From contig JABSOM010000013.1 of NCBI GenBank assembly GCA_013215945.1, forward strand, positions 48,355-112,354: a DNA stretch of 64,000 nt. Reading direction: 5' to 3'. This stretch comes from Campylobacteraceae bacterium. GTDB taxonomy: Bacteria; Campylobacterota; Campylobacteria; Campylobacterales; Arcobacteraceae. Position 1 is the first letter of the stretch; each line of letters opens with the position of its first letter. The notes under the pieces were generated by a model. The model was not told where the DNA came from, did no database searches, and saw only the letters and a program-made list of their open reading frames with translations. Shown here one piece after another: positions 9,523-12,589 of the stretch. The position numbers and the translations under genes are program-made.

Positions 9523-11268
9523 TTATTTTACTTTATTTAAGGTCTCTAAAAAATCATCGGCATTTTTATACCCTACGATTTTAGCACTTTTTATTTCTTT
9601 TTTATTCCTGTCCCAAAAAATTAAACCAGGAGGTCCTACTATATTAAAGCGTTTTTGCAAAGCTTTATCATCTGCATTGTTTTTTGTCACATCTGCTTTT
9701 AATAATAAAAAATCATTTATTAAAATCTTTTTCACTCTCTCATCTTGAAAAGTAAAGTTTTCCAGTTCTTTACAAGAAATACACCAATCGGCATAAAAAT
9801 CAAGCATTATAGGTTTGCTTGAATTTTTAATCGCAGCATCTAATTCTTTTATGTTTTTTATATAGGTAAATTTAATTTCATTGTTTATTCCAATAATACT
9901 AGCAGAACTTGTAAATTTAACTAAAGGATTTAGTACATTTGTAGCTCCACTGCTAGCTCCTACAAAAACAAGTGCCCCATAAAGTAAAAGAAGCGCTGAG
10001 ATTAGACGAACAAGAATATGTTTATAAGCTTGAATATATAAAGCAGAAGCAAGCATTAAAACAGCCCATGCATACATAATAAGACTAGGATCAAGTACTC
10101 TGTCTAACATATAAATAGCAATACCTAACATCAATAATCCAAAGATTTTGGAAATACTGTCCATCCACTCGCCTGGTTTTGGCATGTATTTACCTGCTCC
10201 TAAACCAATTAACAATAAAGGAATACCCATTCCAAAAGACAGAACAAATAAAGCAAGCCCACCTAAAATAGCATCGCCTGTTTGCCCTATGTAAATCAAA
10301 GCTCCTGCTAGTGGTGCTGCTACGCAAGGCCCTACAATTAATGCAGATAAAAAGCCCATAATTGCAATTCCAACAAAACCTTGTTTTTCTTTTCCTTCAC
10401 TGCTTTTATTTATTTTATTTTGCAGACTTTGAGGCAATTCTAATTTAAAATATCCAAACATTGAAAAAGCCAAGAGTACAAAAACAAAAGCAAATATACT
10501 TAAAACATAGGGATTTTGTAAAGCAACTTGTAAATTAGAACCAAATAAACCAGCTAATACCCCCGCTATTGTATAAGCAAATGACATAGAAAGAACATAT
10601 ACAAAAGAGAGTAAAAAACCTTTTTTGGAAGAAAGTTTTTCTTTTGCACCCGCTTTTACAATTATAGAAGATAAAATAGGAATCATAGGAAAAATACAAG
10701 GGGTTAAAGACAGTAAAAGTCCAAAACCAAAAAAAGTAAGTAAAACAACAAAAATATTACCATCTCTTAATGAGTTGGTAATTAAATCACTTTCACTTAA
10801 ATCATCCTTGTCAATATTTGAAAACATAGGCACTTGATTATTATTTTCTAAAGTTCCTGCTCCTAAATCAAGCTCAACGGTACTGGTCATTGGTGCATAA
10901 CACAAACCATTGGTTGAACAGCCTTGATATTGCGCTTCAATAGTATAAAGTGTTTTTCCAAATTTGCTTATTAATAATTCATGAGGGATATCAATACGAA
11001 GCCCATTAAAATGAACAATAAACTCATGATACATTTCAGGTTTTTGAACACTTAATTCTTTTGTAATATCTAAAACAGAAGGTTTTATTATTGAGATTTT
11101 TAATTTTTCATCGTATAAGTAAATATCTTTTGCTAATACTAAATCAACAATAAGTTTATTGTCTTTTTTTTCAAAATTAAATTTTATTGCATCCGTGGGG
11201 CTTAAAAAATCTTGCTCAAGAGCAAATAAATTAACGATAAAAAAAAGTATTAATAGTATCTTTCTCAA
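9523..11268 (-). CDS. dsbD: Thiol:disulfide interchange protein DsbD
   Basis: A 581-residue inner-membrane reductant shuttle. After a signal peptide comes the periplasmic N-terminal domain with its Cys pair in GCSTNGLC (about residues 133-140). Eight or so membrane segments (about 175-440) carry the Cys motifs LTPCIFPM and VGPCVAAP. A C-terminal thioredoxin domain has FYADWCISCKELE. DsbD carries electrons from cytoplasmic thioredoxin to periplasmic thiol proteins. The start codon is TTG at 11268, seven bases after AAGGA. The gene lies downstream of, and on the same strand as, a secreted thioredoxin-like gene with an in-frame UGA, whose product is a plausible DsbD substrate. Confidence 0.95.
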   Translation of the reverse strand: MRKILLILFFIVNLFALEQDFLSPTDAIKFNFEKKDNKLIVDLVLAKDIYLYDEKLKISIIKPSVLDITKELSVQKPEMYHEFIVHFNGLRIDIPHELLISKFGKTLYTIEAQYQGCSTNGLCYAPMTSTVELDLGAGTLENNNQVPMFSNIDKDDLSESDLITNSLRDGNIFVVLLTFFGFGLLLSLTPCIFPMIPILSSIIVKAGAKEKLSSKKGFLLSFVYVLSMSFAYTIAGVLAGLFGSNLQVALQNPYVLSIFAFVFVLLAFSMFGYFKLELPQSLQNKINKSSEGKEKQGFVGIAIMGFLSALIVGPCVAAPLAGALIYIGQTGDAILGGLALFVLSFGMGIPLLLIGLGAGKYMPKPGEWMDSISKIFGLLMLGIAIYMLDRVLDPSLIMYAWAVLMLASALYIQAYKHILVRLISALLLLYGALVFVGASSGATNVLNPLVKFTSSASIIGINNEIKFTYIKNIKELDAAIKNSSKPIMLDFYADWCISCKELENFTFQDERVKKILINDFLLLKADVTKNNADDKALQKRFNIVGPPGLIFWDRNKKEIKSAKIVGYKNADDFLETLNKVK

Positions 11269-11285: not shown

Positions 11286-11306
11286 AGTAAGCCTTAAAGG
11301 CTTACT
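11286..11306. terminator. Hairpin between the thioredoxin-like gene and dsbD
   Basis: AGTAAGCC and GGCTTACT form a perfect 8-bp stem around a 5-base loop. There is no T-run on the minus strand, so it may be a weak terminator or a processing site that separates the two cistrons rather than a true Rho-independent terminator. Confidence 0.45.
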
Positions 11307-11344: not shown

Positions 11345-11710
11345 TTAATGGAAATATTCTTCCACATTGGCTTTTATTTCATCTGGCGTTTTAACACCTC
11401 GCTCTAAAGCTAAAACTAAACCATTTTCTATATACGCTAAAGCAGGCATAACACTTGCTTTTAAACGTTTTGCTAATTCACTTTGTGCTTCAATGTCGAC
11501 TTTATAAATGGTAACACCATCATTGGGATTGCTTGTTTCATATTTTGTTAAGTTTTTACCTAAAACCTTACAAGCGTATCACCAAGAAGCGTAAAATTCT
11601 ATAATTACATTTTTATTGCTTATTTTTTGATCAAAATTTTCATTTGTCAAATCTTCAAATGCAAACAAAGATGAAACAAACAACAATAAAACAAGAAAAA
11701 ATTTCTTCAT
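11345..11710 (-). CDS. Candidate selenocysteine-containing secreted thioredoxin-like protein (UGA at 11579-11581)
   Basis: Read with UGA as an amino acid, this is a 121-residue protein: signal peptide (MKKFFLVLLLFVSSLFA), then a thioredoxin fold with NVIIEFYASW-U-YACKVLG, the strand YKVDIEAQ, the cis-proline segment ASVMPALAYIENG and a C-terminal helix. The UGA is codon 44, exactly where thioredoxins have the first Cys of CxxC, giving UxxC. ATG at 11708-11710 has an AAAGGA site seven bases upstream. Frame, length, cis-Pro and C-terminus are intact past the UGA, so decay is unlikely. A hairpin with an AGGT loop begins just after the UGA. DsbD, encoded next on the same strand, would reduce it in the periplasm. 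The alternative is a recent nonsense pseudogene. Incorporation also requires SelABC/SelD genes, which are not in this window. Confidence 0.82.
11545..11573 (-). promoter_or_regulatory. Candidate bacterial SECIS element
   Basis: In the minus-strand transcript, five bases after the UGA, TTGT-AAG-G-TTTT pairs with AAAA-A-CTT-A-ACAA around a loop of AGGT. There is one G/A mismatch and one bulged A. The loop starts 17 bases after the UGA and begins AGGT, the same spacing and loop start as in the Escherichia coli fdhF SECIS as recalled from the literature. Both features are what SelB is known to recognise. Energy and covariation were not computed. Confidence 0.7.
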
Positions 11711-11840
11711 TTTCTATCCTTTCGTAAATTCTTCATTATTAGTATACATTACTTATGTGTATTTTATGTTTAGCTAGTTATAACAAAATTTTAGAGCAAG
11801 CTTCGCTATAATTAGGAACTTAGAAAAACTTAGGATAAGA

Positions 11841-12182
11841 ATGAATAGATTAAAACTGGTACATCCAGATGACTTAGACATAAAAAATGACATAATAATT
11901 GATATCAGAAGAGAAGCCGAGTTTGCAGAAACTGGAATTATTAAAAACTCCATTAAACTAACATTTTTTGATGATTATGGACAATATGATTTATTATCCT
12001 GGATAAAAGAGTTTAAAAAACATGTTAAATCTCAAGACCAGAAGTTTGTTTTAGTATGTGCTCATGCACAAAGAACTGACATGTTAGGGAACTATTTATT
12101 GAATGAACTAGAATATAAAAACACTTCTCATTTAGAAGGTGGGATATCTTTATGGTTACGTTTAAACAAAAAAACGGTTTAG
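11841..12182 (+). CDS. Rhodanese-like single-domain protein with active-site Cys
   Basis: A 113-residue protein without a signal peptide, so cytoplasmic. The order IIDIRREAEFAETGIIKNS, then VLVCAHAQRTDMLGNYL and HLEGGISLWLRL is that of a rhodanese domain, with the catalytic Cys in the VCAHAQRT loop. Rhodaneses move sulfane sulfur; the acceptor is unknown. It is a paralogue of the convergent gene that follows, with matching DIRRE, TGII and VKS segments, and the stop codons of the two overlap. Confidence 0.82.
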   Translation: MNRLKLVHPDDLDIKNDIIIDIRREAEFAETGIIKNSIKLTFFDDYGQYDLLSWIKEFKKHVKSQDQKFVLVCAHAQRTDMLGNYLLNELEYKNTSHLEGGISLWLRLNKKTV

Positions 12183-12589
12183 TTAAATTCTCTTATTCTT
12201 TTGTCTTCTTTAATCCAAGCGTTAATTCCCTTAGATAAATAATAAACATTATGGTATTTCTTTTCTTCAAATAATATTTTAGCTAGTTTTTTTGATCTTG
12301 TAGTATCTGAAGAAACCAAAACAAAAGATTTTGTTCTGCTTTTAACCAAACGCGCAAAAATATACAACCAGCGTTTCATATTGTATTCATTGTCTTTATT
12401 ATAAAAAGTCAGACGATAGGAGTTAGGAATTATTCCTGTTTTCTGCCATTCATCTTCTCTTCTTATATCAATAACAACAATATTTTTAGCCAATAAAAAT
12501 TCAAGTTTAGCACTTGTTATTAACTCTTCTTTTGAGAATAAAAAAGAAGTAAAAAATAAAAAAATAAGCACTATTTTATATATATTCAT
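12179..12589 (-). CDS. Secreted rhodanese-like protein lacking the catalytic cysteine
   Basis: A 136-residue protein with a signal peptide (MNIYKIVLIFLFFTSFLFS) and a rhodanese fold: VVIDIRREDEWQKTGIIPNS, FVLVSSDTTRSKKLA, YYLSKGINAWIKED. The position of the active-site Cys is Ser (VSSDTTRS against VCAHAQRT in the neighbour), so classical sulfurtransfer is not expected. It may bind anions or act as a structural partner in the periplasm. It is convergent with its cytoplasmic paralogue, overlapping at the stop codons by four bases. Confidence 0.8.
   Translation of the reverse strand: MNIYKIVLIFLFFTSFLFSKEELITSAKLEFLLAKNIVVIDIRREDEWQKTGIIPNSYRLTFYNKDNEYNMKRWLYIFARLVKSRTKSFVLVSSDTTRSKKLAKILFEEKKYHNVYYLSKGINAWIKEDKRIREFN

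Follow-up and report, generated by a model that had tools for sequence, protein, structure and literature searches.

A candidate selenocysteine thioredoxin encoded beside dsbD in a Campylobacteraceae bacterium

Is the UGA found within a thioredoxin-like gene beside dsbD of a Campylobacteraceae bacterium the end of this gene or a codon for selenocysteine (Sec)? The gene is located in the window, by which we mean the whole stretch of 64,000 nucleotides that was analysed, and the UGA is its only in-frame stop (Table 1). A sequence-only reading of this DNA had proposed that the UGA replaces the first Cys of a thioredoxin CxxC site. When TGA was read as U, the product contained ...IIEFYASW-U-YACKVLGK... 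with U as residue 44, and the U44-Y-A-C47 site was thus present as proposed. The results described below support, with a probability of about 0.75, that the gene encodes a secreted selenothioredoxin in which Sec44 is inserted through a conserved hairpin and electrons pass from DsbD to oxidised periplasmic proteins. Sec insertion at the UGA is in itself almost certain as judged from the comparison of sequences.

Table 1. Positions of the features of the selenothioredoxin locus in the window.
Feature	Position	Strand	Basis or remark
Sec-thioredoxin gene	11345..11710	minus	121 aa with UGA read through; ATG at 11710, UGA at 11581-11579, TAA at 11347-11345; PF00085; family comparison; fold model
In-frame UGA, predicted Sec44, first residue of UxxC	11579..11581	minus	conserved across family
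Cys47, second redox residue	11570..11572	minus	invariant in 41 rows (alignment A2)
P89, cis-proline position	11444..11446	minus	invariant in 41 rows (alignment A2)
Ribosome-binding-site-like AAAGGA	11717..11722	minus	sequence
Signal-peptide-like N-terminus MKKFFLVLLLFVSSLFA	11660..11710	minus	judged by eye
Putative SECIS hairpin, full 11-pair form (columns 9-37 of alignment A1)	11545..11573	minus	lower helix less supported
Putative SECIS core, 5-bp stem and AGGUA loop, loop G at 11560	11552..11566	minus	RNAalifold from alignment, unprompted
dsbD, 581 aa, TTG start	9523..11268	minus	NF001419, 518 bits against 330; directly downstream of Sec-thioredoxin gene
Rhodanese-like protein, conserved neighbour of dsbD locus	11841..12182	plus	domain match, synteny
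Second rhodanese-like protein	12179..12589	minus	domain match, synteny

The gene, its product and the Sec decoding capacity of the genome

The window protein matched the thioredoxin domain PF00085 with 66 bits against a curated cut-off of 23.5, and its AlphaFold2 model, which was made from a 41-row alignment, had a mean pLDDT of 90.7 and thioredoxins as its top PDB structure matches. The domain match together with the invariant P89 bears out the earlier claim that the rest of the fold, including the cis-Pro, is intact, and the claimed good translation signals correspond to the AAAGGA upstream of the ATG start. The protein did not reach the equivalog cut-off of the NCBIfam thioredoxin TIGR01068 (65.1 against 96.8) or that of DsbE/CcmG TIGR00385 (20.2 against 123.15). 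SaoT (NF040730), HUIPC (NF047660) and the other Sec thioredoxin-like models of NCBIfam, which are named in the available portion of PMC13188914, were absent among the nine models matched at E ≤ 0.001, and the only selenoprotein model among these nine was TsoB (19.6 against a cut-off of 805). In the signal-like region, F16 is invariant and A17 nearly invariant across the 41 rows of A2, and the window thioredoxin is predicted to be exported to the periplasm. A mechanical ORF list showed no ORF of 80 aa or more at this place, which agrees with the expectation that gene callers would split or drop the gene.

The adjoining protein contains the FYADWCISCK motif that had been ascribed to a neighbouring DsbD. 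Between the stop of the thioredoxin gene and the start of dsbD, at 11,286–11,306, lies a perfect 10-bp palindrome (AGTAAGCCTT-T-AAGGCTTACT, minus strand) without a T-run, which may act on the dicistronic RNA. The two rhodanese genes are arranged end to end, and the second has a signal-like start and a Ser (FVLVSSDTTR) at the position where the first has its likely catalytic Cys (FVLVCAHAQR).

The sequence-only reading had called for a search for selA, selB, selC (tRNA-Sec) and selD, with a lack of Sec machinery counting against it, and the full set was found in the own genome of this bacterium (G000; 3.24 Mb, 98.67% complete). A tRNA-Sec with anticodon TCA shares one contig with selA (561 bits against a cut-off of 267.9), selB (336 against 242) and selD (351 against 125). 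The SelD (L010:12183-13220) carries Cys and not Sec in AAGCAAK, which we take to be its active-site loop, and a resolvase-domain gene (L010:10421-11044) is located near selA and tRNA-Sec. The genome also has two FdhA-like genes (L085 and L086) with one internal TGA each; these are partial matches to the model, and their scores of 448 and 444 bits do not reach its cut-off of 666.

Conservation of the UGA and of the hairpin that follows it

Among the 104 genomes of the same family, 78 matched the window protein at E ≤ 1e-8. The best 81 family matches (E ≤ 4.2e-23) comprised 59 without a stop and 22 with exactly one stop, and in each of the 22 this sole stop was TGA and took the place of the first Cys of CxxC. 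The UGA genes are spread over 20 genomes, G091 and G093 having two each. The homologue check suggested earlier, that is, whether relatives carry Cys or UGA at position 44, therefore returned both forms, 59 of the Cys type and 22 with UGA. The closest named relative, the metagenome-assembled Arcobacter sp. NORP36 (G087), is 96% identical and keeps the same UGA with no further stop, and the combination of Cys in close relatives with other lesions, which had been held to speak against Sec, was therefore not found. SelB was above the cut-off in 19 of the 20 family genomes with a UGA gene. In G096 (86% complete), which has a UGA gene, neither selB nor selA was found, and its best SelB-model match (E 2.2e-32) was weaker than the EF-Tu-like matches seen in most other genomes. 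A search of the order (398 genomes) gave, among the matches listed, at least two more UGA forms, G315 and G389, from another family and both with selA, and TGA is the only stop in the G315 copy. Two other candidates were rejected: the TGA-bearing order match G286, whose stop precedes its start, and L012 (Oscillospiraceae) are both ordinary CGPC thioredoxins. L013 is a partial match, and L011, L015 and L044 are one and the same record, which was counted once.

Cys and UGA copies are kept together in 7 of the 20 UGA genomes, the Cys copy being of the CPPC type, and a Cys copy is also missing from 35 of the 84 family genomes that have no UGA gene. A rule that the UGA gene entails loss of the CPPC copy was therefore given up, as no clean exclusion exists. 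In G091, four paralogues were observed, namely two UGA copies, one of which stands in tandem with a CDIC Cys copy (L049:6445-7228), and a CPPC copy linked to dsbD.

The earlier reading had placed the start of a SECIS-like hairpin five bases past the UGA and its loop 17 bases past it, and this geometry was recovered with the loop AGGUA. When the window hairpin was folded singly, it gave −6.2 kcal/mol with a z of −1.08, which is weak, as 26 of 200 shuffles were as good; an Rfam scan of the window gave no match at gathering scores. Because the single-sequence fold is weak, the strength of the SECIS case comes from comparison. By criteria drawn from the Sec-thioredoxin family itself (a 5-bp stem, a loop G at column 22 and an open frame of 40 codons or more both before and after the UGA), the UGA of the window gene is the sole one on both strands of the window. 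Alignment A1 of the 22 family UGA genes (19 distinct) had 91.9% of its cells paired in the 11-pair structure against 34–63% when the structure was slid. Cells with changes on both sides numbered 18, where shuffles gave 7.2 and none of 500 came as high, and neither the pairs with both-side changes (3 against 3.0) nor the further pair types (7 against 9.1) were above shuffles in A1. RNAalifold, unprompted, returned the apical 5-bp hairpin and nothing else, and three of the five pairs of this hairpin showed compensatory changes.

Of the 20 distinct UGA sequences (from 24 genes), 19 had the core fully paired, for which synonymous-codon shuffles gave an expectation of 4.4 and a maximum of 10 in 400 sets; L063 had three of the five core columns paired. 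The mean hairpin energy of the UGA sequences was −7.3 kcal/mol against −4.1 kcal/mol in synonymous-codon shuffles, and the hairpin of L050 was not more stable than its own codon shuffles (p 0.62). The G at column 22 occurred in 20 of 20 distinct UGA sequences but was shared by 25 of the 40 distinct Cys sequences, and all five core pairs occurred in 5 of these 40, one being the apparent reversion L065 described below; parts of the hairpin are thus not Sec-specific. In both FdhA-like genes of G000, the UGA is likewise followed by a hairpin with its loop G at column 22. A SECIS model (R1) built from the 22 family UGA genes found the window gene, L046 and the apparent reversion L065 at 66–74 bits (L065: 65.8). 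Its matches to CPPC loci were weak (19–32 bits) in 8 of 18 and absent from the others. R1 did not find the hairpins of the two FdhA-like genes, which indicates that it is specific to the Sec-thioredoxin gene and is not a general SECIS finder.

At positions +6/+7 after the Sec, 22 of the 24 UGA genes encode LG and the other two LE, and in 41 Cys genes LG occurs in two (one being L065) and LE in one; the SECIS loop thus seems to have written Leu-Gly/Glu into the protein. The residue before the second Cys is Ala or Ser in all 24 UGA genes (UxA/SC) and Pro in 37 of the 41 Cys genes (CxPC). The apparent reversions, with CPSC and CSAC, have Ser or Ala in the Pro position. Since loss of the CxPC proline makes a thioredoxin less reducing and Se-S bonds are more reducing than S-S bonds, the change of Pro to Ala or Ser may be a compensatory tuning.

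The dsbD slot, the history of the gene and the rival readings

A CPPC gene adjoins dsbD in 18 of 18 loci examined (L066-L083), with a rhodanese gene on the other side in 17. In G000 and G087, the Sec gene occupies exactly this dsbD-linked slot of the CPPC paralogue, and a second homologue was not found in either genome at E ≤ 1e-8. The slot is empty, with the rhodanese gene and dsbD adjacent and the UGA gene elsewhere, in G056, G062, G092, G093, G094 and G099, and the dsbD surroundings are different in G042, G315 and G389. G089, of the same genus, has a 290-aa gene upstream of dsbD in place of the thioredoxin (L093), and no thioredoxin homologue was found in its genome at E ≤ 1e-8. All 22 genomes with a UGA gene also have dsbD, but as DsbD is widespread this speaks only weakly for a partnership. 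Synteny, the empty slots and the fold together make DsbD the probable electron donor.

The strongest rival holds that the protein is a selenoprotein with a donor or role outside the DsbD path, such as a peroxidase-like or sulfur-handling periplasmic enzyme linked to rhodaneses or SelO. Only two of the 22 family UGA genes adjoin dsbD, the other 20 are away from it, and rhodanese genes flank the dsbD locus. SelO (PF02696), a predicted protein adenylyltransferase, is the divergent neighbour of nine of the 22 and lies one gene from a tenth (L049), and the apparent reversion L065 also diverges from it; these SelO-linked loci are L049, L051-L054, L056-L059, L064 and L065, with Pfam confirmation for L057 and L065 only. 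We nevertheless regard this role as unlikely, at roughly one chance in four by the weight of the thioredoxin domain and fold, of the Sec gene in the dsbD slot of the CPPC paralogue in G000 and G087, and of the empty slot in six other UGA genomes.

The trees sampled 30 of the 59 family Cys homologues and 11 from other families. In the main tree (24 UGA and 39 Cys rows, U/C column masked), all 24 UGA rows and two Cys rows were placed on one side of a branch with support of 100/95, and three changes of state were needed (3 at the 5% and 95% points of 200 bootstrap trees). Gain and loss were read with the rooting of an earlier outgroup-rooted tree, and the branch, the three changes and this rooting together indicate that one gain of Sec and two reversions to Cys are likely. 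When SECIS-coding residues were also masked, the clade was not recovered and the best tree had four changes, with one Sec clade not rejected (p-AU 0.44). The first tree, with a midpoint root, set apart two Cys rows on long branches (the tandem Cys copy of G091 and the row of G077), the next tree placed them inside the Sec clade, and both were omitted from the main tree and the topology tests. In the first apparent reversion, L065 (G092), the codon is UGU and the hairpin core is fully paired, and in the second, L118 (G094), the codon is again UGU and the loop is changed; selB is present in both genomes.

A Cys codon could instead have changed to Sec in place at the dsbD slot in the lineage of G000 and G087, separately from the other Sec genes. 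The CPPC gene's slot is indeed the one occupied, and a test at the 5% level did not reject grouping of the G000/G087 gene with family Cys genes, whether all columns were used (p-AU 0.073) or the SECIS-coding residues were masked (0.088). The log-likelihood of this arrangement was, however, 19.5–19.7 lower, the best tree put the gene in the Sec clade at 100/95, and the gene has UxA/SC and LG/LE in common with the other Sec genes, which makes a change in place improbable.

A nonsense mutation in a dying gene would require that the UGA is a true stop, and UGA does terminate 7 of the 55 window ORFs of at least 100 aa, with read-through of no more than 18 codons beyond each; the G389 copy of the other family also has a second stop, an in-frame TAA in the signal-like region, near a contig end, and this copy may be damaged or misassembled. 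Against this, the same codon with no other stop recurs in 22 genes of 20 genomes and in G315, and G000 and G087 differ by 5 synonymous and 2 nonsynonymous codons after the UGA with the same numbers before it, so that decay of the gene is very hard to credit. The reading of UGA as tryptophan (code 4) can be dismissed almost outright: all 17 protein-database homologues (P0002-P0018) show W at the site, but P0002 is identical letter for letter to the NORP36 protein with W in place of TGA and was thus translated with a Trp-reading code, as the other 16 presumably were, the 30 family Cys homologues that were read, out of 59, have no Trp at the site, the tRNA with anticodon TCA is the tRNA-Sec, and the UGA stops of the window ORFs speak against table 4.

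For the secreted selenothioredoxin fed by DsbD, which we prefer, the following course can be suggested. SelB, together with Sec-tRNA, would bind to the loop of the hairpin, and Sec would be inserted at the UGA. After export, the Sec selenolate would attack a substrate disulfide (or a sulfenate), Cys47 would resolve the adduct with formation of an Se-S bond, which would in turn be reduced by the C-terminal domain of DsbD (WCISC). Non-native or oxidised periplasmic Cys residues would be the default substrates for such a fold. The longer history is more tentative, and we put it forward as somewhat less than an even bet: a single-origin Campylobacterales selenothioredoxin would have displaced the CPPC thioredoxin as DsbD partner, by takeover or deletion of the slot; Pro to Ala/Ser would have tuned the site and kept a more reducing Se-S centre matched to DsbD; Leu-Gly/Glu would have been forced into the protein by the SECIS loop; and two lineages would have gone back to Cys, one with the SECIS intact.

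Significance and comparison with known systems

One small single-domain enzyme family thus combines an apparent single gain of Sec and two reversions with selB genomes and with CPPC paralogues alongside, and because of this it offers a natural set of matched Sec and Cys enzymes with which the contribution of selenium in the periplasm could be measured. It is also an example of a gene that is cut at the UGA by mechanical ORF listing and written with Trp in a protein database. No description of the UGA thioredoxin family in Arcobacteraceae was found in the passages of open-access full text that were consulted.

The earlier statement that Sec thioredoxin-like proteins are known in other bacteria is in line with the literature. 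Sec-containing thioredoxins (PF00085, UxxC) are listed for Geobacter, Anaeromyxobacter, Carboxydothermus and Treponema denticola in the available portion of PMC1794560, and WP_010956703.1 is the Sec-containing thioredoxin of PMC9312934 and PMC13188914 in the portions available. The window family is like these in the PF00085 domain, the Sec at the first redox position and the bacterial SECIS, and may differ from them in its signal-peptide-like start, UxA/SC motif, synteny with the dsbD slot and two nested Cys genes, which we read as Sec-to-Cys reversions. For its seven thioredoxins, Table 1 of PMC1794560, in the portion available, gives no Sec/Cys conversion in either direction, and the same portion records remnant SECIS elements after Cys codons in other families. 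According to the available portion of a 2026 review, bacterial Sec-to-Cys changes are rare and mainly those of FdhA and SelD (PMC13188914). The hairpin resembles the minimal bacterial SECIS of epsilonproteobacteria, as described in the available portion of Cravedi 2015 (PMC4607533), in being a hairpin of 5/6 bp a few bases past the UGA with an invariant loop G, and differs from it in the AU-rich stem of the window family. That portion counts one annotated Sec "thioredoxin (Tr)", which may or may not belong to the window family.

Another comparison is with the CPPC thioredoxin beside dsbD in other genomes of the family (L066-L082), which has the same slot, length and signal-like start and is 43–49% identical to the window protein. 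It differs in that Cys stands in place of Sec and Pro in place of Ala/Ser, in that LG is mostly missing, and in its R1 scores of 19–32 bits or none against 66–74. SoxW and the CcmG/ResA-type proteins are periplasmic thioredoxins fed by CcdA/DsbD-type transporters. The window protein is unlike CcmG in its low score with the DsbE model, and is like the SoxW or CcmG/ResA type in being, by prediction, a periplasmic thioredoxin fold that is fed across the membrane.
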